Assembly: GCA_019239825.1 (NCBI GenBank)
Contig: JAFAZK010000145.1
Coordinates: 1-64,000 of the forward strand
Length of the DNA stretch: 64,000 bases
Direction: 5' to 3'
DNA from: Verrucomicrobiota bacterium
GTDB lineage: Bacteria; Verrucomicrobiota; Verrucomicrobiia; Chthoniobacterales; JAFAMB01
Each line of letters starts with the position of its first letter. The first letter of the stretch is position 1. The position numbers and the translations under genes are program-made. Of this stretch, positions 33,341 through 64,000 are shown in pieces. A model generated the notes under the pieces. It saw only the letters and a program-made list of their open reading frames with translations. It was not told where the DNA came from and made no database searches.

Positions 33341-33378
33341 CATCCCCAACCCGATACGCGGGTGCAATTCCAACTCGG

Positions 33379-33468: not shown

Positions 33469-33600
33469 GCGCCTGGTGAGACGGTCTGCCTACCCCCGGG
33501 CTTTATCCCACAGCGGTGTCAAACAAAGCCTCTTTTCCCACAACGTTTTCTCCCAAGTTCCGGTTGCCAGTGCTGGCGTTTCGTTAGAGACTCACAGGGC

Positions 33601-37997: not shown

Positions 37998-38454
37998 TGC
38001 GGATCGTCCTAACATACCGGATGATCGGGACGACAGGCATCCGCCGCAGATCCTGCGCGCGCTTCAGCAGCAGCGCAGTATGGTGTTCGGGAAGCCGATT
38101 GTGCTTGATCTGCCCGGGTCCAATTTACTAACCTTTCCTCTGTCGAGGCTGCGGTTCAGCTCTCGTCCGGTCGATACCTCCGGGAAGGGTGGTCATTAAG
38201 CAGGACGCGAACAGATAAAATTTTATACCCGCTTGATATGGCGAATTGTGACTTCGAAGCAGCCGGAAAAGAGCGCAGACCTGGGCGCGCGGCTGGAAGC
38301 GATCGCTTGAGTAAAATTAATCAAAGCACCAATGCACGCTGAAAGAACTTGCAACCGGCTGCCACGCAATCCCCGGCGAGATCAATCGCAAAAGACCAGT
38401 ACTCCACCACTCCAAAACTCCATCACTCCGGCTCCGAGCCGGAGCGCTATCTTC

Positions 38455-43059: not shown

Positions 43060-43132
43060 TCGTGGGAACTTCGAGAAGACAACTTTAGACCCTTGGAGTG
43101 TCGTCAAGTCGGGTCAAAGCACAAGGGCAAAA

Positions 43133-44920: not shown

Positions 44921-45706
44921 TTACGCATTGCTCCCGGCCAAGATCGAAATTTGGGCAAGAATCGAATGGAAAATCGATTCTCGATTATTTCGAATAAAGA
45001 AGTGATCTCCATCAAACATCTTCAGCTCGAAGCCGCTTTTCGTGTGTGAACGCCAGGCGTCCAAATCCCTTTCCTTTGCCGTGGAATCGGCGTTTCCTCC
45101 AAACGCGTAGATCGGACAATCCAACGGATCCTGTTCCTCATAAACGTACGTCTCAAGTGCCGTTATATCGGCACGCAGGACCGGAATGAGGAGCTTCATT
45201 AGTTCCGCATCTTTCAGGATGATAGCCGGCATTCCACCATAACGGCGGGTGACCTCGGCAAGAAATAAATTGTCCGGCAGGCGGTGCACGGGAACATCCT
45301 GTTGTGGCAGGTGAGGTGCACGTCGAGCCAGAGCGTACAACGCTAACGGCGCGCTGATCTTTCGTCTGCGCAGCTCGCGGACAAGCTCAAAAGCGACAAG
45401 CGCACCCAGGCTATATCCATACAAGATATAGGGCCGATCCAGATAAGGGTTAATCTCCGAAGCAAGGTTTTCGACGATGGTCTGAATTCGAGTAAATGGA
45501 GATTCGCGAAGACGATTCTCCCTGCCCGGGAGTTGGATTGGGCAGATATCAAGAACCCCCGGCAGAAAATCCTTCCAGGTAGCGAACTGGAACGCTCCGC
45601 TGCCGGAATGAGGTAAGCAAAAAAGTCTGCAGAGCGCTCTAGAACTTGTTCGACCTCCAGCAATCCAAGGCGTTGTTCCGGCGGCCATGCTAGTGTCCTG
45701 TCCCAT
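44921..45706 (-). CDS. free-standing thioesterase of the polyketide synthase cluster
   Basis: The 261-residue alpha/beta hydrolase has the nucleophile elbow GYSLGA with Ser99, a lid region (APHLPQQDVPVHRLPD), the Asp strand (PIYAFGGNADSTAKERDL) and the catalytic His (FDGDHFFI). This is the type II thioesterase pattern, whose members remove stalled or wrong acyl groups from carrier proteins. It begins 27 nt after the last synthase gene. Because that synthase has no fused thioesterase, this enzyme could also release the product. Confidence 0.9.
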   Translation of the reverse strand: MGQDTSMAAGTTPWIAGGRTSSRALCRLFCLPHSGSGAFQFATWKDFLPGVLDICPIQLPGRENRLRESPFTRIQTIVENLASEINPYLDRPYILYGYSLGALVAFELVRELRRRKISAPLALYALARRAPHLPQQDVPVHRLPDNLFLAEVTRRYGGMPAIILKDAELMKLLIPVLRADITALETYVYEEQDPLDCPIYAFGGNADSTAKERDLDAWRSHTKSGFELKMFDGDHFFIRNNRESIFHSILAQISILAGSNA

Positions 45707-45733: not shown

Positions 45734-48700
45734 TCATTTAATCTCCTCGAGCTTCTTCAGCAGCAAATGTGCGATCTCCTCTTCGCTCAAGTCATCAACC
45801 GGCTGACCGGATGACGGAGCCCTCTCAGGATCCACTTGCGGCTCGCTAATTTCGGTCTTCGATTCAGGGGCGAATTTCAGAGCCTCGCAGAGGATATAGT
45901 CGGTCAGCGCTCTGATGTTTGGATAGTTAAAGATCAGCGTGGAAGGAAGTTCTTGGCCTAAGCTACTTTCCAGCCGACCTTTTAATTCGACCGCCATGAG
46001 AGAATCCAAGCCCAGGTCGAAAAGACCTTGCTCCAAGTCGATCTCGCGTGAGGGATGGAATCCTAGAACGCTGGCCACCAGGGAACGCAAGTGCCCGATC
46101 ACTATCTCTCGGCGGCGAACTGGCGACGCGTTTTGTAGTTCCTGGGTCAGATTCGATTTTGGCGCCGTAGATTTTTGTAGTGGAGCTCTTTGGTGTTCCG
46201 GAGAATATCGGCGTTGAATCTCAGCGAATAGAGGACGCCTGCGCCGTGCTTCGTAGACGCCTCGCAATGTATTCCAATCGACGGACGCCACGATGCCGGA
46301 GGTTCTATCAGCCGAGATAAGCCGCTCCAACGCGGTTAGTGCCCGGTCACAGGGCATCGGACGCAAGCCGGCGCGTTCGAACTCCTCTTTGTCCGTTTTA
46401 GATGCGACCCGCATTTCCTCCCAAGTCCCCCAGTTCACAGATAACGCTCGAAGACCGCGCTTCCGACGCCAATGGGCCAGCATGTCGAGCGCCTGATTCG
46501 CGGCCGCGTAGTGACCTAAACCAGCCGCTCCCCACAAACCTGTGGTGGACGAAAAGAGCACGAAAAAGTCCAGCTCCATACCGAGGGTGAGTCGGTTGAG
46601 CACCCATGCACCCAGCGCTTTTGCCCGGCACATCTGTTGCATTGCTGCCAGATCTAGATCGCGGATAGAACGACCCGTCATTTCTACGGCGCAATGGGCG
46701 ATTCCTCGAAGCGGATAATCTTCTGTGGCGACACGATTCAAGATCTGTCGCATCGCGTTTTCATCGGCTACATCGGCTCTCGCGACGGTGATTCTTGTAC
46801 CCAGTTTTTCCGCTTTGACTATCGCCTCGATAGCTTCGCGATGCGGGTCGTCCACAGGCAAATCCGGCCATAGGGTCCGGTCCGGGAAATCACGGCGCGA
46901 AACCAACACCAAATGACGGGCGCCCTTTACAGCCATCCAATTCGCGATACGCAGCCCCAACCCGCCCAGCCCACCAGTGATCAGATAAGTTCCGTCACCG
47001 CACAGGAAAAGAGGCTCCGCCGCCGGTTCCTCGGCGCGCACCAATCGGGGCACGAGACGCTCACCGTTTCGATAGGCTATGGCGTCTTCCTCGCCGGCAT
47101 GTTTGATCTCGCGCCAGATGGCAACTGCCGATTCTTGCGGCGACGCATCAGGATCAAGATCAACGATGGAGCCCAACTGGCTGGGATTTTCCAAGGAAAG
47201 AACGCGCCCGAGTCCCCAGGTTAGAGCTTGGATTGGCTGACACACCTCAGTATTCGTGCCGCCTTTCGAAGAGATCAACTGTCCGCCCTTCGTGGCTAAC
47301 CAAACACGGGCATCGGACCCAGAGGTCGCTGCGAAGAGCGCTTGCGCGGTATGCAGCACTCCTGCGCCGATGCGTTGTTGGGCGGCTTCCCAAGCGACTG
47401 CCGTTGTCTCGACCGAAAGTTCCTCGTCCATCGGCCACAAGTTCAAGACACCTTTCAGCGGAGCCAGGCAATGCGCACTCGCGTCCAAAAGTAAGCGCTG
47501 GAAATCACTTGGCCGCAACGGATTGACGGTTGCCCTGTACCCCGATCCAAACTGGTATTCTTCGGCCTGTAAAACGAGAACCGATTTTTGCCCCTCTTTT
47601 GCGAGCAGATCTGCGATTTGTTCCCCTATCCCTTGGTTATCAGCGAGAACTAGCCACAAGCCGCCAAGCGCGATTTCGGTTTCCTGACTATCGATTCTGA
47701 CCGGCTTGCGGCCAAGCAAGACCGCCTGCTGAGCCATTTCAATGTTTCCAGTCGAGGAGTCTGTAGTCGTCTCAAGTCCCATTTCCTGGAACAACGTGGT
47801 CCACTGACCGGCTGTAAGCAGAGGGGAATCGGAGCGCAAAGTGGCATCTTGGAATCGCCACCAGCCGTCAGTCATGCCGAACGTCAAATCGACCCATCGC
47901 TGTCGGAGTGTTGCTTCCAGCAGAATCAAAAGGCCGCCAGAAGCCAGGAGGCTAACGGTATATCCGAGTGATGTGCGGAGATCGCACGTGGCATGCAAGG
48001 CATTGGCCGCGATAACCACATCGAACGACTGCTCTTCGAAGCCCTGCTCACCAGGCGGCTTCTCGATGTCCAGAAGTTGATAGCTGACGAACGGATGGTT
48101 GCGGAATTCATCGCGCGCACGTGCCAGAAAGAGAGGAGAAACGTCGCTGAAAACATATTGTGTGCGTTCAGCAGAGAGGTGCGGAAGCAGGAATGATGTC
48201 GTTCCGCCAGTCCCCGCACCGACTTCGAGGATCCGAATCGGGCGATTTTTGGGCGCTTTCTCAGTTGCCGCGACCAACACTTGCCGGACGACAGTGTTTA
48301 AGGCGCGCGCGAACGGCGAGCGACGATAGAGAGCATTTGCAGTATCAAAGTCGCCACCTGGGAAAAGCAGTTGTAGCGGATCGCAAGTTCCACGTAGAAC
48401 CTCATCCAGCCGGTCTGCGCATCTCGCGGTCAGCGTGATTTCGGCGGAACAGGCCGGGAATTCTTGTTTCAACCGATAGGCTTCGGACTGTAGATCGGCG
48501 AATTGCAACTCTGGACATTTGCGTACGATCCAGCGATCGCCGTCGCGAGTTAGAACACCTTCCTCGGACAAGACACCGAGCAGCCTTTCGAAGAGGCGCC
48601 GCTGAGTTGAAACGATGCCTAGCCGCCCAGCCAATTCTTGCGTGGTGAAGTGGTCACCTGAAGAATACGGCCAACCCATTCGCAAAAAGGCCCGACAGAT

Positions 48701-51700
48701 AAACGCGCCACTGAGATCCTCTAGTTGTTCGATCAACGCACCGTAAATCGACAAACCTTCCGCCGCAGAAATCGCCGACAGGTCTCCCCTCGCCTTTTCG
48801 GCGAGTAATCCGGGTATCGGAATGAACTCGCTCGGAGAACTGACTGCGGCTTCCTTCAGCTCGATCGCGGCTGCCTGCTGCCTGCGCCACTCGATCTGGT
48901 AGAACCAGTTTTCGTCTTTCAACCCGGCGACACGGGCAATCGCCTCGCGGGGGGCACGTTTTAGTTGGAGTCCCAAGATTTCCGCGATGAGTCTACCGTT
49001 GTCGTCATAGAGCCGGATATCCGCGCCGAATGCCTCTCCAGTCGGGGCGAGAGGCGAGCGCAAGACGGCATGGTTCCACAATCGGCCGGGAGCAACCGAG
49101 TAAATAGTGAATCGCTCAAGGCCGATCAACAAGTAGCCGCAGTCAACGGTATCGGCGGGCAGTGCGGCACCTAACAAGTGAAAACAGGAGTCCAAGAACG
49201 CTGGATGGATCCGGTACGGTTCAGTCTCGACGGCCAAGCTATCAGGCAGGCGATTTTCGGCGATGGCCTCGCCATCACGCCGTCGGATGCTCGCGATCCC
49301 TCGGAATCGATCACCAAATTCGAGACCCAAAGGAATTAGCGACTCGTATAAAGAGATTGGATTTATTTCCTCCTGACATCGAGCCCACACCTCCTCGCGA
49401 TTCCAATTGGGTGGCGCTATCTCGGGAACCGGAATACCAATTTTTACTCGACCGGTGGCATTTGTGCGCCAAACGCTTTCTGTTTTTCCGTGTGCGGGTT
49501 CCGAGGTGTTCCGACTGCAAACTTGGAAGCTCACCCCGTCTTCGCCGGCCTCGTCCAAGATCAACTGCACCTTGTACGATCCGTCCTCCGGCAAGAAAAG
49601 CGGTTCGCGAACATGCAGGTTGGTTAACTCGCACGGCAACGATTCGGACCTGGCAAGATTGGCAACCGCAGCAGCGCCAGCTAATGCCATCTCTATGTAC
49701 ACCGGTGATGGCATCATCGGCCGGCCAAAGATTCGATGATCGTGAAGAAAGGCGGGATGTTCGACGCCCAGGTCGACTTCGAAAACTGCGCCGGGGATCG
49801 CCGGAGAATCGAGACGCTCTCCTAAGAAGGGATGGGCATTCCCGGTGTGAGACCTCGACTCCTGTTTCTTCCGCGAATTAACGGCGACACTCTCCTGGAG
49901 CCAAAATCGGCTGCGCTGAAAAGGATAAGTGGGCAGCGAGGCACGTTTACCAGCGAATGATGTTGGTATACCCGTCCAATCAAGATCTACTCCCTCAACA
50001 TACAGTGTAGAGACCGCCTCCAGAAGACTTTCCCAGTCTTGCTGGCCGCGATTCAAGCTAGAGGTCCAGACAACCTCGGCTTCCGGTGCTGTCGCCCGAG
50101 CCATTCCGGTCAGAACTGAGTGCGGTCCGATTTCGAGAAATACCGAGTGCCCAATCTTACGTAATGCACGGATGGAATCCGCGAATCGAACCGGATTTCG
50201 AATCTGACGGCGCCAATATTCTGGAGCCGACATCAGGCCCGGAGTAGCCAGTTCACCGGTTACGTTTGAAACGATGGGAACCAGCGGCTCGGATAACTGA
50301 ACGCTCGCAGCGACCCGTTGGAACGAGTCGAGAATCGGATCCATCGACTTGGAATGGAACGCATGAGAAACCGCGAGCGATCTAAACTGTACGCCTTCGT
50401 TCTTCAACTCCGCCAAGAGCCGATCAACCGCAACGGATTCGCCAGAAACGACAACGTTAGCGGGACCATTAGCACACGCAATCGCAACATCACTTCCTTG
50501 GGCGTCGATGGCCCGGGACACGCGGGATTCATCCGTGAAGATGGCCGCCATGGCACCTCCGGCGGGAAGAGAGCCCATTAGGCGGCCTCGTTCTGCAATG
50601 AGTCGGAGCCCATCCTCGAGACTGAACACTCCAGCGATGCAGGCTGCTACATACTCACCGACGCTGTGGCCGAGCACCGCGCCGGGTTCCAGGCCCCACG
50701 ATCGCCACATTGCTGCCAATGCATATTCAAGAGCGAATAGAGCCGGTTGGGTTAGTTGCGTCTGGTCAACTCGATGATCTGAGCGGCTGCCGTCGGCGAA
50801 CAGCGCCTCCAGCAACGGAATTTCCAGCAGCGGATTTAGAATTTCCGCGCACTTCTCCAACTCGCGACGGAAGACTGGCTGGGTCTCGAACAAGCCGCTA
50901 CCCATACCTGGATACTGCGACCCCTGCCCGGTGAACATGAAGACCACTCCGAGCGTTCCCGATTTTATCGAACGGCCGCTCCAAATTCCGGCGCTTTTTT
51001 GGCCAGATCGAAAAGATGCCAAACGTTCGCGTGCTTCTGATAGATTCTGCGCCAGTATTGCCAGACGATATTTGAAGTGGGAACGACCGGTAGCCCCGGT
51101 GCGGCAAACATCCACCAGGTTAAGGTCTGGGCTCTCATTGAAAAGTTGTTGGTATTTTCCAGCCAGCTCCAATAAAGCGGATTCGCTTCGAGCGCTTAAA
51201 ATCAGCAACTCTGGCGATGATAGATTGTCGAGGGTCCGGATGTTCTGAGCCTCAGGTAATACGCCACCGGTAGGAGGGTCGGACACGATTACGTGCGCAT
51301 TTGTTCCGCTGAATCCAAACGAGCTGACGCCGGCGATCCGTTGCCCGCGTTCCCGGGTCCACGGCGTAGGCGCGGTCGCTACCGCGATGGGCAGATCGCC
51401 CCAGTCAATATGCGGATTCAGTTTCTGTAGATGAAGGCTGGGCGGAACTTTTTCGTGACGGAGCGCGAGAATCGTTTTGATCAAGCCGGCGATACCAGCC
51501 GCTGACTCGGCGTGTCCGAAGTTCGTCTTCACCGAACCGATTCTTAACGGAGAGTTCAGACTGCGACCGGGACCGAAAACCTCCGCCAGCGCGTGCGCCT
51601 CGATTGGATCCCCAAGTGAAGTGCCCGTACCGTGGGCTTCGATGTAATCTACATCACCGGCCTCAAGACTTGCGTTGGCCAGTGCTTCTCGAATAACCGC

Positions 51701-52669
51701 TACCTGCGATGGGCCGTTAGGAGCAGTCAAACCATTGCTCCTGCCATCCTGATTAGAGGCGGTTCCGCGAATTAATGCCAGAATACGATCACCATCAGCC
51801 CGGGCATCGGAAAGTCGTTTTAATACGATCACTCCGCATCCTTCGCTCCGGACGAAGCCGTCGGCGGATGCATCAAAAGCCTTACATCGGCCGTTGGGGG
51901 ACATCATATGCGCCTTTGACAGCACAACCGTCGTGTCCGGCATCAGGATGAGATTCACTCCGCCGGCTAAGGCGGCGCGGCATTCACCCGCGCGCAAGCT
52001 TTGACAAGCCAGGTGAACTGCCACTAGGGATGCAGAGCAACCCGTATCCACAGACAGGGATGGACCCTGCAACCCTAGGAGGTACGAGATGCGTCCAGAA
52101 GCAACGCTATGTGCGTTGCCGGTGGCAACATATGCGTCGACCGAATCCCGGCCAGTTTCGAACTGTTTAAGAAAATAATCGTTGTTGCAGACGCCGACGA
52201 ACACTCCCGTTTGTGAACCCGTCAAGCGGTCGGGACATAAACCCGCGTTTTCTAATGCCTCCCAGGTCACCTCGAGCAGGACCCGTTGCTGAGGATCCAT
52301 ACCCGTAGCCTCGCGTGGCGAGATACCGAAAAACTCTGGATCGAATTGATCGATGCCATCCAGGAATCCGCCCCATCGAGTGTTCATTTTTCCGGTCGAG
52401 TCGGGATCCGGGTCGAAAAGGGCGTCGATATCCCAACGATCAGGAGGCACCTCGACAATGGCATCGCGCCCCTCAATCAATAAACGCCAAAACGAATCTG
52501 GATCGTTTACTCCGCCCGGGAAACGACAGCCAATACCGATCACCGCGATCGGGTCGGCCGAGCGCTGCTCCAGGCGTTCCAACCTGGCATTCAGCTCCGC
52601 CGCCAATAGAGCGAGCCGTTTCGGTGGCAGTCCGGCAATGCGTTCAAGAAAATTCATTCGATCATTCAT
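45734..52669 (-). CDS. modular type I polyketide synthase, KS-AT-DH-MT-KR-ACP (PKS-C)
   Basis: The 2311-residue single-module synthase has an N-terminal docking helix (FLERIAGLPPKRLALLAAEL), then the following domains. KS has Cys211 in [20 protein letters not shown] and KTNFGHAE. AT has Ser669 in GHSVGEY and HAFHS, the malonyl type. DH has His978 (HRIFGRPMMP) and Asp1160 (HPAFLDSCFH). A C-methyltransferase has Glu1482 in LEVGAGTGGTTS. KR has GGLGGLG and Tyr2054 in GHYAAANQ. ACP has Ser2223 in [10 protein letters not shown]. The C-terminus ends LSEEEIAHLLLKKLEEIK without a thioesterase. Predicted chemistry is one malonyl extension, alpha-methylation, ketoreduction and dehydration to an alpha-methyl enoyl thioester. 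It overlaps the upstream synthase gene by 4 nt (ATGA). Confidence 0.93.
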   Translation of the reverse strand: MNDRMNFLERIAGLPPKRLALLAAELNARLERLEQRSADPIAVIGIGCRFPGGVNDPDSFWRLLIEGRDAIVEVPPDRWDIDALFDPDPDSTGKMNTRWGGFLDGIDQFDPEFFGISPREATGMDPQQRVLLEVTWEALENAGLCPDRLTGSQTGVFVGVCNNDYFLKQFETGRDSVDAYVATGNAHSVASGRISYLLGLQGPSLSVDTGCSASLVAVHLACQSLRAGECRAALAGGVNLILMPDTTVVLSKAHMMSPNGRCKAFDASADGFVRSEGCGVIVLKRLSDARADGDRILALIRGTASNQDGRSNGLTAPNGPSQVAVIREALANASLEAGDVDYIEAHGTGTSLGDPIEAHALAEVFGPGRSLNSPLRIGSVKTNFGHAESAAGIAGLIKTILALRHEKVPPSLHLQKLNPHIDWGDLPIAVATAPTPWTRERGQRIAGVSSFGFSGTNAHVIVSDPPTGGVLPEAQNIRTLDNLSSPELLILSARSESALLELAGKYQQLFNESPDLNLVDVCRTGATGRSHFKYRLAILAQNLSEARERLASFRSGQKSAGIWSGRSIKSGTLGVVFMFTGQGSQYPGMGSGLFETQPVFRRELEKCAEILNPLLEIPLLEALFADGSRSDHRVDQTQLTQPALFALEYALAAMWRSWGLEPGAVLGHSVGEYVAACIAGVFSLEDGLRLIAERGRLMGSLPAGGAMAAIFTDESRVSRAIDAQGSDVAIACANGPANVVVSGESVAVDRLLAELKNEGVQFRSLAVSHAFHSKSMDPILDSFQRVAASVQLSEPLVPIVSNVTGELATPGLMSAPEYWRRQIRNPVRFADSIRALRKIGHSVFLEIGPHSVLTGMARATAPEAEVVWTSSLNRGQQDWESLLEAVSTLYVEGVDLDWTGIPTSFAGKRASLPTYPFQRSRFWLQESVAVNSRKKQESRSHTGNAHPFLGERLDSPAIPGAVFEVDLGVEHPAFLHDHRIFGRPMMPSPVYIEMALAGAAAVANLARSESLPCELTNLHVREPLFLPEDGSYKVQLILDEAGEDGVSFQVCSRNTSEPAHGKTESVWRTNATGRVKIGIPVPEIAPPNWNREEVWARCQEEINPISLYESLIPLGLEFGDRFRGIASIRRRDGEAIAENRLPDSLAVETEPYRIHPAFLDSCFHLLGAALPADTVDCGYLLIGLERFTIYSVAPGRLWNHAVLRSPLAPTGEAFGADIRLYDDNGRLIAEILGLQLKRAPREAIARVAGLKDENWFYQIEWRRQQAAAIELKEAAVSSPSEFIPIPGLLAEKARGDLSAISAAEGLSIYGALIEQLEDLSGAFICRAFLRMGWPYSSGDHFTTQELAGRLGIVSTQRRLFERLLGVLSEEGVLTRDGDRWIVRKCPELQFADLQSEAYRLKQEFPACSAEITLTARCADRLDEVLRGTCDPLQLLFPGGDFDTANALYRRSPFARALNTVVRQVLVAATEKAPKNRPIRILEVGAGTGGTTSFLLPHLSAERTQYVFSDVSPLFLARARDEFRNHPFVSYQLLDIEKPPGEQGFEEQSFDVVIAANALHATCDLRTSLGYTVSLLASGGLLILLEATLRQRWVDLTFGMTDGWWRFQDATLRSDSPLLTAGQWTTLFQEMGLETTTDSSTGNIEMAQQAVLLGRKPVRIDSQETEIALGGLWLVLADNQGIGEQIADLLAKEGQKSVLVLQAEEYQFGSGYRATVNPLRPSDFQRLLLDASAHCLAPLKGVLNLWPMDEELSVETTAVAWEAAQQRIGAGVLHTAQALFAATSGSDARVWLATKGGQLISSKGGTNTEVCQPIQALTWGLGRVLSLENPSQLGSIVDLDPDASPQESAVAIWREIKHAGEEDAIAYRNGERLVPRLVRAEEPAAEPLFLCGDGTYLITGGLGGLGLRIANWMAVKGARHLVLVSRRDFPDRTLWPDLPVDDPHREAIEAIVKAEKLGTRITVARADVADENAMRQILNRVATEDYPLRGIAHCAVEMTGRSIRDLDLAAMQQMCRAKALGAWVLNRLTLGMELDFFVLFSSTTGLWGAAGLGHYAAANQALDMLAHWRRKRGLRALSVNWGTWEEMRVASKTDKEEFERAGLRPMPCDRALTALERLISADRTSGIVASVDWNTLRGVYEARRRRPLFAEIQRRYSPEHQRAPLQKSTAPKSNLTQELQNASPVRRREIVIGHLRSLVASVLGFHPSREIDLEQGLFDLGLDSLMAVELKGRLESSLGQELPSTLIFNYPNIRALTDYILCEALKFAPESKTEISEPQVDPERAPSSGQPVDDLSEEEIAHLLLKKLEEIK

Positions 52670-55600
52670 TCACTTGCCACGCTTCCGATCCCTTTGCCCT
52701 CGAACAACCGATCGATTTCAGCGTCATCAAGGTTTTCGATGTGGCTGAGCACATCCAATGCGGCGGGAGTCGCAGCAGGTCGTTTCGGGGATTCCGGTTC
52801 TTCGAGCTTCAGCGCGTTTCGGCTCAGATAATCGGTTAATCCATCCAGCGTCGGGTAATCGAAGAGCAACGTAGCTGGGAGACTACCACCAACGGCATCG
52901 CCTAGTCGATTCCGAAGCTCAACGGCCATCAGCGAATCCAGACCGAACTCATGCAGGGGCTTGTTGTTCGGTAAAGACCCTGAGTTTTGCAGTCCTAACA
53001 CGCGCGCGACTTCGTTTCGTATCTGCTCAAGCACCACACTCCGCCGTCGATTCGGAGCCGCAGCGTCGAGGCGTTGTCTGAAGGCTGCCGATTTTGAAAG
53101 ACCACGTTCTGTCCTGACATCTCCGGCTTCGCCGATTTCACTCTGGTCATAGGATCGTTGATCAATCGAAGTGGCGGCCTGCACGAAGTCGTTCAGGAAC
53201 TCCGGCGAATGGCCGCCCGGCTGCGAGTTGCGCAAAAATTTGGCCCAATCAACCGGCGAGATCATGACCTGAGACCGACCAGCCATCAACGCGACTTCCA
53301 ACGCCTGGAAACCGGCGCCAGGCTCAAGTACGCCGTACCCTGACTCCCGGGCCCGGCTAATCAGTCCGCGGTCAACCGCCATTCCCGCTCCGGCCCAAGC
53401 GCCCCAATTGATGCTGAGCGACGGTTTGCCGGCGGCGTTCCGAGCCTGAGCCAGACCGTTCAGGAAAGCGTTAGCGGCCGCATAGCTGCTTTGTCCGGGA
53501 GAGCCGAACACCGACGCGATCGACGAGAAAAACACGCAAAAATCAAGCGGGTCTGATGCGGTCAAACGGTGCAAGACCAGGCTGCCGGCGACTTTCGGTG
53601 CGAAAACGGTCGCGAAGCGTTCCCAGCTTTGTTGGAGCAAAATGCCGTCGTCCAGTACGCCCGCCGAATGAATGACTCCGCGGAGCGGAGGCATTGTCTC
53701 TCTCAGGTCTTCCAATACATCCCGCATCGCTTTCTCGTCCGAGATGTCTGCTTGCACACAACGTAGTTGAACGCCGCGCGCTTGGATTGCCTGGAAAGTG
53801 CTATTGCTATGTTCAGGGGCCTGCCTTCCGGTCAGGACCAGGTGCCGGGCGCCACGGTCCGTCAGCCATTGCGCGGCCATCAACCCAACGCCGCGGAAGC
53901 CGCCGGTAATCAAATAGGTGCCATCTGCATCGAGGCTAAAGGTGGTTTTGGGTCGAAAAGTTTCAGCGTGAGAAACCACGACTTTTCCGATGTGACGACC
54001 CTGCGCCATGAACCGGAAAGCTGCTTCGGCGTACCGTAACGAAAACACCCGGTGAGGCAATGGACCCAGTTCGTCCCGGTCGACTGCTGCCACCAACTCA
54101 CGCAGCATAGAGCCGATCAGTTCGGGATTTCCCCGAGCCTCGACGCTCCAGTCAACGATGTGGTACTGGATCCCGCGACCCAAACTGGCGACTCGTTCCG
54201 GTTCCCAGATTCCGCGTTTACCGATCTCCAGGAATCGCCCGTTCTGCGCAATGACCTGAAAACTGTGATCCACAAACTGGTCAGCGAGCGAGTTCAGGAC
54301 CACATCCACGCCTCGGCCATTTGTCAGTTTTAAGATTTGGGCAGCGAAATCCAAGGAACGTGAATCCAGCACATGAGCTACTCCCATCGATTTCAGGAGC
54401 GCCCGTTTTTCCGGTGAACCAGCTGTGGCAAAGATCTTAGCGCCCACACGCTTGGCCAGCGTGACTGCCGCGAACCCAACCCCGCCGGCTGCGGCGTGGA
54501 TCAAAACCGTATCTTCAGGCTGCAATTTGCCAAGATGACGCAAGGTGAAATACGCCGTGATGTATGCCACCGGCAGAGTTACTGCCGCGTCGAAGCTGAG
54601 CCGAGCAGGCTTGGGAGCAACCAACGCCGTCGGAGTCGTGACGTAAGCTCCAAAGCTGCCGGGTGCTAGCCCTACCACTTTATCACCAAGTGCAAATTCG
54701 GTGACGCCATGACCCAGGGCGACAATTTCGCCCGCGAACTCCGCTCCCAATGGCCCGGCATCGCCCGGGTACAACCCCATCACGTTCATGACGTCGCGAA
54801 AGTTCAGCGCCGTAGCGTACACCCGAATTTCGACTTCCCCTGCTGCAGGCGAGCGCCGCTCCCGCAAATCTAGTTTAAGATTCTCGAGGGAGCCGCGATT
54901 CGAGAACGTGAGTTCGTACGGCTGGCCGGCAAGCCGCGTAATCGGATCGGTGGTTAGATCGACTGCCTTTCTTAAACGCTGCAACCGGGCGCCTAATTGG
55001 TGGCCGGAGCGGATCGCGATCTCGTTTTCGGCCGGTTCGGCATCCAGCGTTGCAGCCAATGATTCGATCGCTTCGGTCCCGGTAGGATCAAGGTCAAGCC
55101 GAACGCAGCGGAATTCCGGATGCTCAAGACCGATTACTTTGCCCAGTCCCCACAGCGCCGCGCCCGCGGGAGAAAGGGCTCGGTCAGCCGGATCCGCTTT
55201 GTGTGCGCCCCGAGTGCACAGCCACAACCTGGGTGGTTGTGTTCCGGCGTGCCGGACAAGCGCTTGGACTAATTGTAGGGCTGCCCCGCAGTAAAACTCC
55301 GTTTCGTGCTCGCAACCAGTCGCAGCCGAGTCGTCGACGCTTGCGTCCAGCGGCCAGAGATAAACCACTCCGTCCAGCGGCGTATCATCGCGACGGAAAT
55401 AACGATCCACCAATCTGTCGAAGCCACTCTGGCGGACGGAACCCAGATTTTCATCCGTCTTAGAACTATCAATTATGACGTCATCTTGGAGGCAAGCCAA
55501 TACCGGCTGATCGCCGCGTGAGACCAAAAAATCGGCAAGTTTTTGACCGGTTCCTGCTCGGTCGCCAAGTATGAGCCAGCGCCGCGGTCGAACTGATGGC

Positions 55601-58600
55601 AGCGAGCCCACCGAGTTTTCGGGGTTAGACACCAGTTCTACGGAGCGCTTGTTTGCTATAGACTCGGAGGCCGCGGTCTCCGACCCAACCAAGGGCACCC
55701 AAACCGTTTCATAAATCGAGCCATCGACATTTCGATGAATGGCTCGCTCCAGCGCTGCGCGCTGCGCGCGTTTGAAGGACATCCCACGGATCTCCGCGAC
55801 AAGGCGTCCGTTTTCGTCCGCGATCTGGAACCGAGCTTTGACCGTCTCCTGTTTAGTTGAATCACCCTGAATCGAGGCAACGCTCCAAAGTTTTCCAGTC
55901 GGCGCGCCGAAAACCCGAATCGATTCGATCCCCAGCGGCATAAACAGCTCTGGGTCAGTGTCTATCTCATCGACGGCGCCGGCGACAACTTGAATACAGG
56001 CATCCAGCAATGCAGGATGGACGGCATATTCGTCGGCCTCGCACCCTAATAGCAGCGGGGCTTCGATTTGCCCGAGAGCCTGGCCGGGTCGCCGCCAGAG
56101 ACGGGTTACGCCGCGAAAACGTGGACCAAAATCGACTCCGCGCCGCTGGTAACTCGCGTAGAATCGTTCGGAACCGAATTCCTCTGCTTCGTGGCGGAAC
56201 AGGTCCACATCGATCGTTGCCGAAGCGGGTTTTTCGCGTGCGACCAGATTTCCGGAGGCATGCAGTTGCCAGATGTCTTCGGCGCCGATCGCAGTCACTT
56301 TCGAGCTGAACACTTCAAAGCGAGCAGTCCCATCCTGATTGCGCGATAACACGACCTGTAGGCGTTTCGTTTCGCTGTCTTCCAGCGCCAGCGCCTGACC
56401 TATCACCAGGTTTTCGATCGCCCAAGAATTCTTTTCCAATCCGAGGCCCGCAGCGGCACGCACCGTTTCCACATAGGCCGTCGCTGGGAAAACGATTCGG
56501 CCAAACAGACGATGATCTTCGAGGAACGGATGCGAGGTCGCGCTGATTTCTGATTCGAAGACGGGATTTTTCAAGGACGGCGAGCTGATGCGCCGCGCTG
56601 CTAAAGGATGCAACGTCGCTGCCGTTTCAGGCCGAACCGCTTTTTTTGTCGGACGCTCGACCAAGTAACGTTCACGCTGAAACGGATAGGTCGGTAGAGT
56701 TAAACGCCGCCGGGAATAGTCGCGATCGAATCCAGACCAATCGACCGCAACACCATTCACATACAATTCGCTCAAGCTGGCGAACATTTGGGCCCAATCG
56801 TCGCTTCCGCGCCGCAACGATGGCAGCCAGTGGGCTCCTTCGATATCGGCGCATCTACGGCCGATTGAGAGCAGCGTCGGGCTGGGCCCAATCTCGACGA
56901 ACAGCGTACAACCTGCGTTGGCCAGGGTCCGAACCGAATCTGTAAATTGCACCGGTTCGCGGAGATGCCGCGCCCAATAACCCGGTTGGCCAATCTCAGG
57001 TCCGGTTGCGATGCGCCCGGTCAGGTTGGAAATCAATCGAAGCCGAGGTGTACCGAAAGACACTTTTGCAGCGGCCTGCGTGAAGGGCTCAACTACCGGG
57101 TCCATCAGCGGCGAATGAAATGCGTGGGACACAGGCAAGTGCCTGAACGCGATCGCTCCGCTTTTCAGTTTGGTTGTTACGAGATCGATTTCTTCTCCGG
57201 GACCCGAAATCACCGTTTGATCCGGCGCATTCAAGGCCGCAATCGACACTCGGCCCGGCAAGATTTCCCGAATCATGTCGGCTGGCGCCATGACGGCCAC
57301 CATTTTGCCGCCTGCTGGCTGAACCTGCATCAGCCGAGCTCGTTCCGCGATCAGGGTGAGTCCATCTTCCAAACTGAACACTCCGGCTACACAAGCGGCG
57401 ACGTACTCGCCAACGCTATGGCCGACCACATAAGCCGGTTGCACTCCCCACGACCGCCAAAGCTCATTCAAAGCATATTCGAGCGCGAACAATGCTGGCT
57501 GCGTAAACCGAGTTTGATCCAACAGAGACCCGGCTTCGGCCGCTGGAAAGAGAAGGTCCAGCAATGAACGATCGAGGTAAGGACGAAGCGCAACCGCACA
57601 ACGATCGAGAGCCCGTGCAAAGGTCGGCGATGTTTCGTAAAGCTGTTTTCCCATACCTGGGTATTGCGCGCCCTGGCCGGTAAACAGAAAAGCGATTTTT
57701 GGCCGATCGATGCCGTCCCACGACCCCCGCACTAAGCCTGGCGCAACCGGGTCCGACAAATTCGCTCGCAACACGGCGGCGGCCGTTTGGCCGTCAGCGC
57801 CGAGGACCGCCAGACGGTGCTGGAAATGGGACCGGCCAGTATTGGACGTATAACAAAGATCAGAAAACTCACCCGGGCTGGCTGCTTGAATCCGCTCCGC
57901 GTATCCCTCCACAAGCGTGCGCAAGGCGGATTCGGTTCGCGCCGAAATTGTGAGCAAATGGAGCGGACGGTCCGGGTTCGATCTTTCGCTAGCAGCGAAA
58001 GGTGCTTCCTCGAGCAGAACGTGCGCGTTAGTGCCGCTAAACCCGAAAGAGCTAATGCCGGCAATGCGCGTACCGTTTACGGGCTTCCAGAACTGTCGTT
58101 CGCCGACGACCTTCACCGGCAGTTTTTGCCAAGGAATGTGAGGGCTGGGTTCCTTAAAGTTCAAATGCTGCGGAAGTTCCTGATGAACCAACGACAGGAC
58201 CACCTTGATCAATCCGCTGACCCCCGCAGCCGCTTCGAGATGACCAACATTGGTCTTTAGGGAACCGATCAATAAGGGCGTTCCAGGATCGCGACCGGCG
58301 CCAAAGACCGTTCCCAGCGCTTGTACTTCAATCGGGTCGCCCAGAGAGGTGCCGGTGCCGTGAGCTTCAATGTAGCTAACGTCTCGCGGGTTGACTTGGG
58401 CATTCTCCAGCGCATCGCGGAGTACCGCTTCCTGGGAGGGGCCGTTCGGAGCGGTTAACCCGCTGCTCGGCCCATCCTGGTTTACGGCGGAACCGCGGAT
58501 CACGGCCAGGATGCGATCACGATTTGCCAGCGCGTCGCCCAGGCGTTTCAAGATGACCACGCCGCAGCCTTCACCACGGACAAAACCATCCGCTGCGGCA

Positions 58601-59394
58601 TCGAACGTTTTGCACTTCCCGTCGGGCGCCAACATTCGTGCTCGAGACAATGCCGAAAACACTTCGGGTGAAAGAATGACATTCACCCCGCCGGCCAACG
58701 CCAGGTCGCATTGTTGATCGCGTAATCCCTGACACGCCAAATGGACCGCTACGAGCGAGGATGAACAGGCGGTGTCAACCGAGATGCTCGGGCCTTGCAA
58801 TCCCAGCGTATAAGATAACCGGCCAGAGGCGATGCTGTGCGCGATGCCAGACGCGTAATACATGTCCAGTAAGGCAGGGTCGCCCGATTCGAGCAGCAGT
58901 TGAGAGTAGTCGTTGCTGCAGACGCCGACATAAACACCCGTTTTGGTCTTTGCCAGATCCGCCGGCGATTGTCCTGCGTTTTCGAGCGCTTCCCAAGCCA
59001 CCTCGAGCAAAAGACGCTGCTGGGGATCCATGGTCAGCGCCTCCCTCGGCGAGATTTCAAAGAACTGAGGCTCGAAACGATCGACCTGATCCAAAAACCC
59101 GCCAAAACGAGTGGCGATCTTCCCTGGGCTATCCGGATTGGGGTCGTAATATGCGTCGACATCCCAGCGGTCCGAAGGGATCTCTCGGATTCCGCTCTCG
59201 CCCTGGTGGAGCAATTGCCAGAATTGTTCCGGGGTACTCGCACCGCCCGGTATCCGGCAGCCAACCCCGACAATAGCGATAGGTTCGTGCCTCTGTCTTT
59301 TGGCCGCAGCCAGCTCCGCCTGTAATTCTTCGATGGCGAGCAAGGCCCGCTTTAATGGCGAGAGTTCCGCCGATTTCGTGCTCATTGACGACAA
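52666..59394 (-). CDS. modular type I polyketide synthase, fully reducing KS-AT-DH-ER-KR-ACP (PKS-B)
   Basis: The 2242-residue single-module synthase opens with the docking segment [21 protein letters not shown] has Cys210 (DTACSSS) and [14 protein letters not shown] has Ser660 (GHSVGEY) and malonyl-type HAFHS. DH has His961 ([10 protein letters not shown]) and Asp1131 ([10 protein letters not shown]). A structural half-KR precedes the ER, whose NADPH loop is [11 protein letters not shown] at about 1633. KR has GGFRGVG, the B-type LDD motif ([11 protein letters not shown]) and Tyr1971 (SSYAAANAF). ACP has Ser2154 ([10 protein letters not shown]). The module should add a two-carbon unit reduced to methylene. 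The C-terminal docking tail ([14 protein letters not shown]) differs from the other synthases here. Confidence 0.94.
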
Positions 59395-59417
59395 ATTAAT
59401 AAAGGACGGTTTGGCGA

Positions 59418-62400
59418 TTATCTTTGTTCGAGCCGTTTCAAAAGCAAAGCTTCAGCTTCGTCTTCGGAAAGCGCTTCGACTTCTAAAACGCGGGCGGCGC
59501 TAAACACCACCTCCGGTTCGTTTGCTTCGCCTGAGTCCGCGGCCGCGGGTTGGTCAGACAGGCAACTGAGCAGAAAAGTCGAGATCGACGCGATCGTAGG
59601 ATAATCAAACATCAGGGTCGCCGGCAAGGTTTGCTCCAGCCCAAGGCCTGATTCTAGCAGGTTCCGCAGTTGAACCGCCATAAGCGAGTCCAATCCCAGC
59701 TCCATCAACCGATGATGAATGCCAAGCCGGCGATCTGGCGCGAGCTGAAGCACATTGATCACCTGCCCGCGAACGTAGTCGTTCATTAACTGTTCTCGCT
59801 CGTCGGGTAATGCCGATTCCAGGCGTAGCCGCAAGTCGGGCGCTGGCGCGGGCAAATCCGTGATGAGTTCCGCGGGCATCGTCGCCAGCGGGACCCGATC
59901 CGTTGGCAGTACAAGCGGTGAATCGGAGATCTCCTCGGCCCCAAAAATCGGGGTACGCGCCAGCATAACGTGCTGGCCGAACACTTCGGCCGGTGAATCT
60001 TTTTCAGGAAGCGCAACGGCTTCAACAAAACCGCGTTCTAAAAGAGCGGTTTGCCATCGCGCAGGTGAGAGCAAAGGATGATCACGCCGCAAATCATCTG
60101 CAAAATGTTGCCAGCCTTCGATCAGTCCCGTCGTGAAATCGAACCAACCGTGGTGACGAGTAACTTCAAGCAGCACCAAAATACCACCCGGCCGTAAGAG
60201 CCGGCTTATTCGCCGTAATGCACCATCCAGGTCGCGAACCGCATGGACGGCGTTCACCGCGACAACGGCGTCGAACGCGTTCGGAACAAAGCCTTGGCTT
60301 TCAATTTCTTTTTCCAGATCAAAGGTCGCAAACCGGGCGAATGGAAATGCACCAAACCGCTCGCGAGCACGCGTCAGGAATAGATCGGAAACGTCCGTAA
60401 ACACGTACTCCGATCGGTCCGGATCGAGCAGAGGCAATAACAGGGATGAGGTTGCGCCGGTACCCGCTCCAATTTCCATGACGCGAAACGGCCGGTTTGT
60501 TCTTGAGGCGATTGCCGCAGCGTCGACGGCCGAGACAGCAATCGAATTGGCGTAACGGTTGATGTTTGCGCCCACATACAAGCGTTCAGCGAGAACGGCC
60601 GAACCTTTCGGAAAAAGCGTCTCCAGCGGGCTCTCCCGGCCAGCGATCACCGGGGTAAGCTTCTCTCCGCAGTTGAGCACGTAGGCTAGCAGATCGGGAT
60701 CATCCGCTAGCGCCTGTTTTGTCTCCTCGATTCGAGCATTGAGATCGAAGTCCGGTAAAGGCTGGTCGCTAACAAATGCCCCCTCCTGCTCCCGCAATCT
60801 GCCGGTCGCCGCTAAACGCTCCAGCCATCTGTGGAGCAAAGCTTTGTACATTCCCGGAATTCCGAGACTGTGCAGCAACGAATCCGCATCGTGGGTTTCT
60901 CCCGGTGCAGCGAACGCGCCTAGGGTGCGCAATGCCGACGCCGCATGCGCCGTCGTCAACCGGTCCAAGCAGTCCCATTTTCCGGGGTAGGTCGCAGTAT
61001 TAACGCCAATGGGAGTTTGTTGCGATTGACGCAGCCCCGCTCTGCGCGCGGCTTGCCAGGATGCCTCCGGCTCAAGCCGGACCGTTTTCGATCGCTTGGG
61101 GCTTGAATCGAACCAATAACGTGAGCGCTGAAATGGATAGGCCGGCAAAGTGACTCGGCAGCGAGGATAGTCGCGTTCAAATCCAGCCCAATTGATATCA
61201 GAACCGCTCAAGTAAAGCGTTCGCAGCGATTCTAACATCTGCAGCCAGTTGCCGCGGCCGGGGCGCAAAGAAGGCAGGTAGGTAACTTCTGTTCCCAGAC
61301 ACGAGCGCGACATCCCAAGAAGCACCGGGCGCGGTCCCAGCTCCAACAACGTGTTGACACCCTGTTGTTGGATCCTTTGAATCGCGGCCATAAACTGGAC
61401 CGGTGCGATGATTTGACGACGCCAATAATCGGGCGCGCCTACCAAGTTCGTATCCGCAACCGAACCGGTTACAGTTGAAACAAATGTGGTATCGAGCTGT
61501 CCGTACTGCACCGTTGCCGCCACTTGCCCGAACGCGTCCGCGATAGGGTGCATTAAAGGGGAATGAAACGCGTGCGAGACCACCAGGTCCGAGGCTTTAA
61601 CTCCTTCGGATTCGAGCCGATCCAGGACGGCTTGGACATCGTGACTTTGACCGGAAATAACCACCAGCTCAGGCCCGTTAACTGCCGCGATCGAAACCGA
61701 ACGCGTACCGGTGGAGATGATCGCAGCTTCAACCGACTGTAAGTTTGCGAAAACCACGGCCATACGGCCGCCGGTTGGCAACGACTGCATCAGGCGCCCC
61801 CGTTCAGCGATTAGTCGCAGTCCATCTTCAAAACTGAAAGCGCCCGCGACACAGGCAGCGGTGTATTCTCCAAGGCTGTGGCCCATCACCATGGCCGGTC
61901 GAATTCCCCAAGAACGCCACAACTCGGCTAAAGCATATTCGATGACAAACAAGGCCGGCTGGCAATAAGCAGTATTATCGATTAGCGACTGATCCCCGGA
62001 TTCCGGATAAAGAACCGAAAGGAGCGGTTTCTCCAAATACTCCCGCAGGAGCTCATCGCTTCGATCCAGGATCCGCCTGAACGTGGGCGAGGTTTCGTAC
62101 AAATCGCGTCCCATTCCAACATATTGGGAACCTTGTCCGCTAAACAGAAACGCGACGGGAGGCGATTTCAGGCCGATCGTTTCCTCGAACGGAATGCTTG
62201 AATTAGCCTTCTGACCCGAGCACTCAAGCAAACCGTCACGAATTTGCCGAGTGTTTTCACCGACAATCGCCACCCGTTCAGAGAAATGGGCCCGACCCGC
62301 GTTGGCCGTGTAACATACATCAGCCAGTTGATTCTCGGTTACAGCATCGAGACGGTCCGCTAATGCACTCGCGAGCTGCTGCACTCCTTCTCGGGTGCGT

Positions 62401-63842
62401 GCGGATATAGCAAGAATATGGACGGGGCGGTCCGTTGGAGCAGCAGGCGTGGCCACTTCCGGCGCTTCTTCGATGACCAGATGGGCATTAGTACCGCTGA
62501 AGCCGAATGAACTTAGGCCTGCGATCCGCTTACCGTTTATCTGGTTCCACGGTGTCAAGGTGGTGGGAACGAAGATCGGCCAGCGATCCCAGTCGATGTA
62601 CGGATTTTTTTTGGTCAGATGAAGGTGCGGCGGAATGGACTTGTGCTGAAGTGCGAGTATCACTTTCAGCAATCCCGCCACACCGGCCGCCGCTTCCAGG
62701 TGGCCGATGTTTGTCTTGATCGAACCGAGCGCAAGCGGTTGATCAGCGGACCGGTCTTGGCACAGAACGGCGCAGGCCGCCTGCACTTCAATCGGGTCGC
62801 CCAGCGACGTTCCGGTTCCGTGCGCTTCTAAATAGCTGATTTCATGAGGCGCGACGCCAGCTGCGGCTAGGGCTTCACGAATCACCGCTTCCTGGGCCGG
62901 ACCGTTCGGCGCGGTAAGCCCGCCGCTGCGCCCATCTTGATTGACGGCCGAGCCTCGAATTACGGCTAGAATGCGATTGCCGTCGGCTTTAGCTGACGAA
63001 AGCGTTTTTAGAGCGACAACACCACACCCTTCACCTCGGACATATCCGTCCGCGCTGGCGTCAAAGGTCTTGCAACGCCCATCGGGAGCGAGCATGCGTG
63101 ACTTGGAGAAGTTGATGTTCGCTTCGGGCGAAAGGATCAGGTTGACTCCCGCAGCGAGAGCGAGATTGCATTCTCCTGCGCGTAAACTGCGACAGGCCTG
63201 ATGAACGGCTACAAGCGAAGCCGAACAGGCCGTGTCAATCGCCATCGCTGGGCCATGGACGCCGAGAAAATAGGCAAGCCGGCCAGCTGCGGCACTGTAG
63301 GAATTCCCCAGTGCAGAATAGGCGTCGATGCGTTCCTCGTCGCGGTAAACCATTCGCCAGTAGTCATTGTTTCCGATTCCGAGGAAGACGCCGGTTTGAC
63401 TGTCGCGGAGCGCGCCAGGAGCAATTGCGGCATTTTCCAATGCTTCCCAGGAAGTCTCGAGCAACAGCCGATGTTGTGGATCCAGGCTGATGGCCTCGCG
63501 CGGAGATACACCGAAGAATTCCGCATCGAATTGATCCACCTCGGTCAGGAACGCACCGTGGCGGGTATTCATTTTGCCGGGTTTGTCCGGATCAGGATCG
63601 TAATAATCTTCGAGCTTCCAACGATCAGGCGGAATTTCGGTCACCGTGTTGACCCCCTGGGCCAGAATTCGCCACAGGGACGATTCATCCCTTGCGCCGC
63701 CTGGAAGACTTAGTCCCAAACCGACAATAGCGATGGGTTCCTTTTGCCGCCGTTCAACTTCGTCCAGTTTCGCGCGCAACCTACGCAGCTCCGAAAGAGC
63801 ACGTTTTAAGGGAGAAAGTTGCTCTTGTGAGTCGTCATTCAT
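59418..63842 (-). CDS. modular type I polyketide synthase, KS-AT-MT-ACP (PKS-A)
   Basis: The 1474-residue single-module synthase starts with a docking coil ([20 protein letters not shown]). KS has Cys206 (DTACSAS), [12 protein letters not shown] and KTNIGHLE; AT has Ser656 (GHSLGEY) and malonyl-type HAFHS. A methyltransferase is preceded by a winged-helix-like segment and carries Glu1123 in MEIGAGTGATSS. ACP has Ser1386 ([10 protein letters not shown]). There is no KR, DH or ER, so the beta-keto group should remain; C-methylation between the carbonyls is most likely, with O-methylation of the enol an alternative. The C-terminal tail LSEDEAEALLLKRLEQR is a docking helix of the same type as the partial synthase upstream. 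PKS-B begins 23 nt later. Confidence 0.93.
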   Translation of the reverse strand: MNDDSQEQLSPLKRALSELRRLRAKLDEVERRQKEPIAIVGLGLSLPGGARDESSLWRILAQGVNTVTEIPPDRWKLEDYYDPDPDKPGKMNTRHGAFLTEVDQFDAEFFGVSPREAISLDPQHRLLLETSWEALENAAIAPGALRDSQTGVFLGIGNNDYWRMVYRDEERIDAYSALGNSYSAAAGRLAYFLGVHGPAMAIDTACSASLVAVHQACRSLRAGECNLALAAGVNLILSPEANINFSKSRMLAPDGRCKTFDASADGYVRGEGCGVVALKTLSSAKADGNRILAVIRGSAVNQDGRSGGLTAPNGPAQEAVIREALAAAGVAPHEISYLEAHGTGTSLGDPIEVQAACAVLCQDRSADQPLALGSIKTNIGHLEAAAGVAGLLKVILALQHKSIPPHLHLTKKNPYIDWDRWPIFVPTTLTPWNQINGKRIAGLSSFGFSGTNAHLVIEEAPEVATPAAPTDRPVHILAISARTREGVQQLASALADRLDAVTENQLADVCYTANAGRAHFSERVAIVGENTRQIRDGLLECSGQKANSSIPFEETIGLKSPPVAFLFSGQGSQYVGMGRDLYETSPTFRRILDRSDELLREYLEKPLLSVLYPESGDQSLIDNTAYCQPALFVIEYALAELWRSWGIRPAMVMGHSLGEYTAACVAGAFSFEDGLRLIAERGRLMQSLPTGGRMAVVFANLQSVEAAIISTGTRSVSIAAVNGPELVVISGQSHDVQAVLDRLESEGVKASDLVVSHAFHSPLMHPIADAFGQVAATVQYGQLDTTFVSTVTGSVADTNLVGAPDYWRRQIIAPVQFMAAIQRIQQQGVNTLLELGPRPVLLGMSRSCLGTEVTYLPSLRPGRGNWLQMLESLRTLYLSGSDINWAGFERDYPRCRVTLPAYPFQRSRYWFDSSPKRSKTVRLEPEASWQAARRAGLRQSQQTPIGVNTATYPGKWDCLDRLTTAHAASALRTLGAFAAPGETHDADSLLHSLGIPGMYKALLHRWLERLAATGRLREQEGAFVSDQPLPDFDLNARIEETKQALADDPDLLAYVLNCGEKLTPVIAGRESPLETLFPKGSAVLAERLYVGANINRYANSIAVSAVDAAAIASRTNRPFRVMEIGAGTGATSSLLLPLLDPDRSEYVFTDVSDLFLTRARERFGAFPFARFATFDLEKEIESQGFVPNAFDAVVAVNAVHAVRDLDGALRRISRLLRPGGILVLLEVTRHHGWFDFTTGLIEGWQHFADDLRRDHPLLSPARWQTALLERGFVEAVALPEKDSPAEVFGQHVMLARTPIFGAEEISDSPLVLPTDRVPLATMPAELITDLPAPAPDLRLRLESALPDEREQLMNDYVRGQVINVLQLAPDRRLGIHHRLMELGLDSLMAVQLRNLLESGLGLEQTLPATLMFDYPTIASISTFLLSCLSDQPAAADSGEANEPEVVFSAARVLEVEALSEDEAEALLLKRLEQR

Positions 63843-63935
63843 GTCGGTTGGGTCAGGGAAAAATGAGAGGAGCGAAAAGAAGTGCCGCCGTGGTGCTATT
63901 CGATTGGACCAACTGGTTTCGTATCTTAGGTCTGA

Positions 63936-64000
63936 TTAGACCCCCGATTCTTTCAGTTGGTTCAGTTCCTCTAATAGCAACGATTCGGCCTCGCTTTCAG
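63936..64000 (-). CDS. C-terminal end of a further polyketide synthase, truncated by the window edge
   Basis: Only the last 21 codons are visible, reading ESEAESLLLEELNQLKESGV before the stop. This matches the C-terminal docking helices of PKS-A and PKS-C in this locus, so an upstream synthase gene almost certainly lies beyond base 64000. It ends 93 nt before the PKS-A start and shares its direction. Confidence 0.7.
   Translation of the reverse strand, partial: ESEAESLLLEELNQLKESGV

Follow-up and report, generated by a model that had tools for sequence, protein, structure and literature searches.

Which pathway do the three adjoining polyketide synthase (PKS) genes at the right end of this stretch of verrucomicrobial DNA belong to, and what might it make? 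The stretch, called the window below, comprises 64,000 nucleotides, namely bases 1-64000 of a 66,345-base contig (C316) of the metagenome-assembled genome (MAG) G000 (6.67 Mb, 349 contigs, 95.8% complete, 8.1% contamination). The three genes all lie on the minus strand and each encodes one module in one protein, here called A, B and C. We conclude that they are very probably extension modules two to four of a single modular hybrid of cis-acyltransferase PKS and nonribosomal peptide synthetase (NRPS), in which the proteins P0007 and P0008 would supply the starter and first extension, P0005 would act after C, and P0006 would add glycine and release the product. The domains discussed are ketosynthase (KS), acyltransferase (AT), dehydratase (DH), C-methyltransferase (MT), enoylreductase (ER), ketoreductase (KR) and acyl carrier protein (ACP), together with the condensation (C), adenylation (A), peptidyl carrier (PCP) and thioesterase (TE) domains of NRPSs. 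The features of the PKS line in the window are as follows.

63936..64000, minus strand: 3' end of the upstream module gene P0008 (...ER-KR-ACP); the whole piece is C316:63936-66345, its 5' end cut by the contig end
59418..63842, minus strand: PKS protein A (P0001), KS-AT-MT-ACP, 1474 aa (Pfam and motif survey)
62616..63740, minus strand: ketosynthase of A, with Cys in DTACSAS (Pfam and motif survey)
61197..62150, minus strand: acyltransferase of A, GHSLG, ERGR and HAFH, malonyl type (Pfam and motif survey)
60177..60479, minus strand: C-methyltransferase core of A, EIGAGTG and NAVHA (Pfam, motif survey and MT tree)
59571..59777, minus strand: acyl carrier protein of A (Pfam)
52666..59394, minus strand: PKS protein B (P0002), KS-AT-DH-ER-KR-ACP, 2242 aa (Pfam and motif survey)
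58156..59286, minus strand: ketosynthase of B (Pfam)
56752..57690, minus strand: acyltransferase of B, GHSVG and HAFH (Pfam and motif survey)
55747..56610, minus strand: dehydratase of B (Pfam and motif survey)
53974..54843, minus strand: enoylreductase of B (Pfam)
53392..53922, minus strand: ketoreductase of B, LDD motif, B-type (Pfam and motif survey)
52825..53028, minus strand: acyl carrier protein of B (Pfam)
45734..52669, minus strand: PKS protein C (P0003), KS-AT-DH-MT-KR-ACP, 2311 aa (Pfam and motif survey)
51428..52555, minus strand: ketosynthase of C (Pfam)
49991..50944, minus strand: acyltransferase of C, GHSVG and HAFH (Pfam and motif survey)
48941..49834, minus strand: dehydratase of C, HRIFGRPMMP and DSCFH (Pfam and motif survey)
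47927..48229, minus strand: C-methyltransferase core of C (Pfam)
46415..46993, minus strand: ketoreductase of C, without LDD and with W, the A-type pattern (Pfam and motif survey)
45893..46090, minus strand: acyl carrier protein of C (Pfam)

The Pfam domains of all three proteins lie far above the curated cut-offs (in A, the E-values are 1e-94 for the KS, 7e-62 for the AT, 1e-20 for the MT and 1e-10 for the ACP), and they bear out the three one-module architectures that a first-pass annotation had read from the letters. The MT helix-turn-helix of C gave a weak Pfam match, under its cut-off. The length of B is counted from a TTG start, with an ATG three codons further in, and the start of the C gene overlaps the end of the B gene by 4 bases. 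In the motif survey, the KS domains were found to have Cys, His and His, and each AT has GHSxG, the carboxylate-binding Arg and HAFH. Likewise, the DHs of B and C have HxxxGxxxxP with DxxxQ/H, the ER and KR nucleotide motifs and the KR Ser/Tyr are present, the MTs have ExGxGxG with NxxHA, and the ACPs have DSL. The earlier statements that every AT is of the malonyl type and that the active sites are intact were thus upheld.

These domain sets also place the system. KS, AT and ACP share one polypeptide in A, B and C, as expected of a cis-AT line, and every condensing module of the G000 cluster has its own AT, which is not the trans-AT arrangement; three proteins with differing domain sets and docking ends likewise do not resemble an iterative highly reducing PKS. 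A, B and C themselves lack a release domain in cis, but a second contig of the same genome (C220), linked to C316 by synteny as described below, encodes both a loading protein (ACP-KS-AT-AT with a non-malonyl first AT) and an NRPS (P0006, TubC_N-C-A-PCP-TE) to which the C-terminus of P0005 (...EEGEL) fits, making the whole a PKS-NRPS hybrid. The first-pass remark that characterised verrucomicrobial polyketides are trans-AT holds for characterised compounds only, as uncharacterised PKS, NRPS and hybrid clusters are already documented in soil Verrucomicrobiota, including Chthoniobacterales (PMC8692599). The kind of system is therefore well known, and the G000 cluster is a new member of it, for which the prediction is clearer and more testable than from the window alone.

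The first-pass annotation had asked for sequence past position 64000 as the place to find the loading module. It does occur in the same genome, but on C220 and not on C316, which runs 2.3 kb past the window and ends at 66345 within P0008 (ER-KR-ACP), cutting it at the 5' side; the cluster is thus interrupted by the contig end and not by the window edge alone. C220 carries on one strand P0005 (KS-AT-DH-KR-ACP), P0006 and P0007 (ACP-KS-AT-AT), the last of these cut at its 3' side. The two ends are complementary, with P0007 losing its 3' side on C220 and P0008 its 5' side on C316, both on the minus strand. Because the G000 genome has no other modular KS or DH without a partner, the simplest reading is that P0007 and P0008 are parts of one gene, whose missing piece of ~1.5 kb would be expected to hold a DH.

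As the ends of C316 and C220 do not overlap, and joining by sequence overlap failed, synteny was used to link them. One contig of G003, a genome of the same genus, unites both flanks: a Wza-like gene and a lipoprotein gene, homologous to genes of the C220 flank, lie 4.2 kb away from counterparts of genes flanking the line on C316 (TetR-type regulator, 90%; hydrolase, 85%; D-Ala-D-Ala-ligase-like protein, 91.5%). No PKS occurs between them, and on this ground we regard C220 and C316 as the two sides of one locus. At the C316 side, the line is followed by two genes:

44921..45706, minus strand: type II thioesterase (P0004), GYSLG (Pfam; counterparts in other clusters)
44122..44736, minus strand: TetR-type regulator, border gene of the cluster (homologue at the PKS-free site in G003)

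Several points weigh against this linkage and against the reading built on it. Apart from the missing overlap, the synteny of the flanks, though good, has imperfections: the lipoprotein of G003 matches that of C220 at only 65%, and glmS, which adjoins the lipoprotein gene on C220, sits on another contig in G003. The DH in the gap is an assumption, and the gap could hold a further module. Together with the fragmentation and contamination of the bin, the lack of overlap and the displaced glmS would suit an account in which the contigs belong to two separate pathways, the window line having another, unbinned loader and a hydrolytic end while C220 holds a hybrid cluster of its own. We consider this very unlikely, since the flanks in G003, the complementary cut genes and the matching docking classes all join the two contigs, a single contig of a Chloroflexota genome holds counterparts of all five proteins A, B, C, P0005 and P0006 together, and two separate pathways would leave the window line with no cis release domain in a genome that has no unpaired modular KS or DH elsewhere.

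The 4.2 kb of the PKS-free site in G003 (C565) contain other genes, including a NusG-like gene, and the site also has a 603-aa gene (L174:8984-10795) that by eye resembles a carbamoyltransferase. The GlmS of G000 is 61% identical to that of a Verrucomicrobiales MAG, 56% to that of a Thermogutta MAG and 41-49% to others, in support of a place in the Verrucomicrobiota. In G000, we also weighed contig C164 as a possible part of the pathway but excluded it, because its highly reducing PKS stands alone and proteins of like size are common throughout the order, where PKS proteins of about 2550-2650 aa are found repeatedly. This PKS (L016:4377-14435) reads KS-AT-DH-MT-ER-KR-ACP over 2577 aa, and behind it come a lone condensation domain and a fatty-acid desaturase. 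In the KS tree described below, the KS of P0007 groups weakly with that of C164.

In what order, then, would the proteins act? The docking ends were read by eye, with several proteins in each class. The C-termini of P0008, A and C form one class (...LSEDEAEALLLKRLEQR type), and the N-termini of A, B and P0005 form another that fits them. The C-terminus of B and the N-terminus of C (MNFLERIAGLPPKRLALLAAEL...) differ from these main classes, and the same odd pair was found at the corresponding junction in all five other clusters examined. Finally, P0005 has an acidic C-terminus (...NEFEEGEL) that faces the TubC_N docking domain of P0006. Each docking end is used once by the order P0007/P0008, A, B, C, P0005, P0006, and the classes support this order without proving it. 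The collinear use of A, B and C proposed earlier gains from the docking termini and from the same module order on the Chloroflexota contig, as well as across the other clusters, with each module presumably used once. Lines with one module per protein can stutter, and the gene order on the chromosome (P0005, P0006, P0007...C) differs from the proposed order of use, which counts against our reading and towards non-collinear or iterative use with a longer or different product. As the docking classes and the order kept in five other clusters fit a single pass, we think such use unlikely.

If the modules are used in this order, the starter would be loaded and extended once by a protein reading ACP-KS-AT-AT-[gap]-ER-KR-ACP. 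The first AT of P0007 has AHSLG, ESSRAQA and VAAHS in place of the malonyl-AT motifs GHSxG, ERGRLMQ and HAFH, while the second keeps the Arg. This Arg holds the malonate carboxylate in ATs, and because the first AT lacks it, that domain likely takes a monocarboxylic starter; it would probably load a monocarboxylic acyl-CoA, and the second AT malonyl-CoA. The tandem ATs behind an N-terminal ACP and KS presumably resemble those of the myxobacterial loading and first-extension proteins StiA, MxaF and MtaB; literature searches on the loader type and on a matching product gave nothing directly on point. A would then add malonate, C-methylate it and leave the ketone, B would add malonate and reduce it fully, and C would add malonate, C-methylate, reduce and dehydrate it. 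The fragment suggested in the first pass, acyl-CO-CH(CH3)-CH2-CH2-CH=C(CH3)-CO-, follows from these domains. The KR of C has the W of the A-type and lacks LDD, as does its Chloroflexota counterpart, and an A-type KR acting with the DH could give a Z double bond, although the rule is unreliable here and the A/B-type assignment is itself untrustworthy in MT-containing modules, which tells against this detail of the proposal.

P0005 would add an enoyl unit, and P0006 would take over the chain through its TubC docking domain, add glycine and release the product through a TE with a Cys nucleophile. The A-domain code of P0006, obtained by motif mapping, is DILQLGMIWK, which has been reported for Gly-activating A domains (PMC12283262); the identical code occurs in the Acidobacteriota A domain and in one domain each of the Ruegeria and Allosediminivita clusters described below. 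The TE of P0006 (L015:4507-8742) has Cys for Ser (GGDCAGG), and the counterpart in G046, a genome of another family in the same order, has Ser. It is only distantly like solved TEs (best PDB match NocB, 1.7e-11), but shares the Cys nucleophile with the TEs of ObiF1 and SulM, where it sits in GxCxG (PMC6668435, PMC11298585), although a beta-lactone is impossible from glycine. The backbone would be R-CH2CH2-CO-CH(CH3)-CH2CH2-CH=C(CH3)-CH=CH-CO-NH-CH2-CO-, released as an acid or otherwise, and an acetyl starter with a free acid would give C16H25NO4, with a calculated [M+H]+ of 296.186. The predicted product is thus a doubly methylated keto-diene compound ending in glycine. Trichostatin A contains the motif Aroyl-CO-CH(CH3)-...-CH=C(CH3)-CH=CH-CO-N, which the predicted product shares; the likeness is of structure only, and the predicted product differs in its extra CH2CH2, its starter and its glycine. 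In this way three orphan modules are extended to an almost complete pathway that can be tested, its backbone and mass being predicted, in a phylum with few characterised polyketides.

Is the pathway confined to this genome? Among 11 genomes of the family and 213 of the order, no close orthologue was found; the top match, at 48%, was in G046. When GTDB contigs were scanned with only protein A, nothing was returned, though G000 itself may have been left out of that scan, and in a motif-based scan of GTDB contigs the best relatives among the matches listed were 39-56% identical in the best segment. Whole clusters were retrieved and annotated from Chloroflexota, Acidobacteriota, two Alphaproteobacteria and G046. 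The closest parallel is an uncharacterised cluster of the Chloroflexi MAG L.E.CH.71 (JACAES010000035.1; G216:C150), which reads ...KS-AT-DH-ER-KR-ACP, KS-AT-MT-ACP, KS-AT-DH-MT-ER-KR-ACP, KS-AT-DH-MT-KR-ACP, KS-AT-DH-KR-ACP, C-A-PCP, so that the counterparts of A, B, C, P0005 and P0006 stand in this order on a single contig. Four of these are reciprocal best matches over most of their length (A 52%, C 47%, P0005 50%, P0006 42%), and the positional counterpart of B is 53% identical over 1245 residues. The type II TE (44% to P0004) and the docking pairs are as in G000, but there are three PKS modules upstream of the A counterpart in place of the ACP-KS-AT-AT loader, an extra MT in the B counterpart and no TE in cis, and the A-domain code, DLTKIGEVGK, is one we take to be of the Asn type.

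The other three clusters from outside the order, from Acidobacteria DX1.bin66 (JAJYSV010000007.1; G213:C29), Ruegeria spongiae and Allosediminivita pacifica, are also uncharacterised. The first reads KS-DH-ER-KR-ACP, KS-AT-MT-ACP, KS-AT-DH-ER-KR-ACP, KS-(broken AT)-MT-KR-ACP, C-A-PCP, and the two alphaproteobacterial ones read KS-AT-DH-ER-KR-ACP, KS-AT-MT-ACP, KS-AT-DH-MT-ER-KR-ACP, KS-AT-DH-MT-KR-ACP, KS-AT-DH-ER-KR-ACP. All three share with G000 the succession of a reduced module, a KS-AT-MT-ACP module, a fully reducing module and an MT-KR module, as well as a glycine-type A domain, and DX1.bin66 and Ruegeria also have the type II TE (39% and 36% to P0004, respectively); their loading modules, the presence of MT and DH domains and the downstream modules differ. 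In G046, the genes g3 to g8 parallel P0008, A, B, C, P0005 and P0006 in turn and end in a Gly-type C-A-PCP-TE, but five modules have truncated or absent AT domains, and the TE has Ser rather than Cys.

Domain trees were consulted for conservation by position, the KS tree comprising 65 sequences (IQ-TREE, ultrafast bootstrap, UFBoot). The six MT domains at the KS-(AT)-MT-ACP position all fall into a single clade (support 1.0), and the KR of C groups with three position-C counterparts (0.955) in a clade that also holds the KR of G046 g2. The ER of P0008 pairs with that of the Acidobacteriota module preceding the A counterpart (0.909), as does the ER of B with that of its Chloroflexota counterpart (0.867). 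In the KS tree, A groups with three counterparts (UFBoot 86), and P0005 falls in a clade with its Chloroflexota counterpart (UFBoot 92). Running counter to this pattern, the KS positions of B and C are weak (UFBoot 77 or less), the Chloroflexota position-A KS lies outside the A clade, and B has its best full-length Chloroflexota match in another module, one of identical domain set. Taken as a whole, conservation by position appears well supported by these comparisons, though not in every tree.

The pathway might also be a known one in divergent form. Literature searches gave no characterised cluster that matches the G000 locus, but they did not cover MIBiG, so that the absence of a known product is unproven, and modules of the KS-AT-MT-ACP and DH-MT-KR kinds are found in myxobacteria and cyanobacteria too, organisms with closely related KS domains. 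Against this identity stand the lack of a matching architecture in the literature and the fact that the best relatives, about 44-52% identical over their full length, come from uncharacterised MAGs or strains, and there is in our view a small chance that it is right. We prefer to see the locus as a new member of its class, and go further only tentatively, with a proposal to which we give somewhat less than even odds: that the core of a reduced module, KS-AT-MT-ACP, a fully reducing module and MT-KR, with a mostly glycine-type NRPS, may define an undescribed natural-product family in at least four phyla (Verrucomicrobiota, Acidobacteriota, Chloroflexota and Pseudomonadota), two members of which would be losing their cis ATs module by module and turning into an AT-deficient line that borrows the remaining ATs. 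That this core turns up in phyla so far apart suggests that the compound is worth keeping, and Ruegeria spongiae and Allosediminivita pacifica, named isolates that have related clusters, could be screened for the compound class with no need to culture the verrucomicrobium.

The loss of ATs was seen in two clusters. In the PKS-NRPS cluster of G046 (C9/C35; L070:893-19276, L071:7273-17498, L072:1500-5243, L067:1-11911), the AT is absent or truncated in frame in five of seven modules: it is almost wholly lost in two, in-frame deletions in three others remove the active-site Ser and the HAFH region, and it is intact in the remaining two. The Acidobacteriota cluster (L154/L155, G213:C29:30617-35821 and 46904-52537) has one module with no AT and one with a broken AT, in which GYGTG replaces GHSxG and a central deletion is found. 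The reading frames of the decayed modules are open throughout in both clusters, which look like cis-AT lines caught midway towards AT deficiency. Literature searches on AT decay gave nothing directly on point; the phenomenon may be more unusual than our main finding, and the series bears on the origin of AT-less polyketide synthases. Such decay in relatives, along with the restriction of the cluster to G000 among the 213 genomes of the order (besides the diverged G046 cluster), might suggest that the G000 line is itself decayed or non-functional. No stops or frameshifts were seen in its modules and every motif checked is intact, and we regard its decay as extremely improbable.

Apart from the PKS line, a D-Ala-D-Ala-ligase-like gene adjoins the cluster (window 42043-43107). 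Close homologues of it (58-91%) were found in only four of the relatives searched, most others having more distant ligases, and it is possibly a second paralogue. Further from the cluster, the window encodes a 1203-aa autotransporter with passenger-associated transport repeats (38332-41943) and a Pup ligase of the PafA-like type (33304-34995), a sign of a Pup-proteasome system in this verrucomicrobium.

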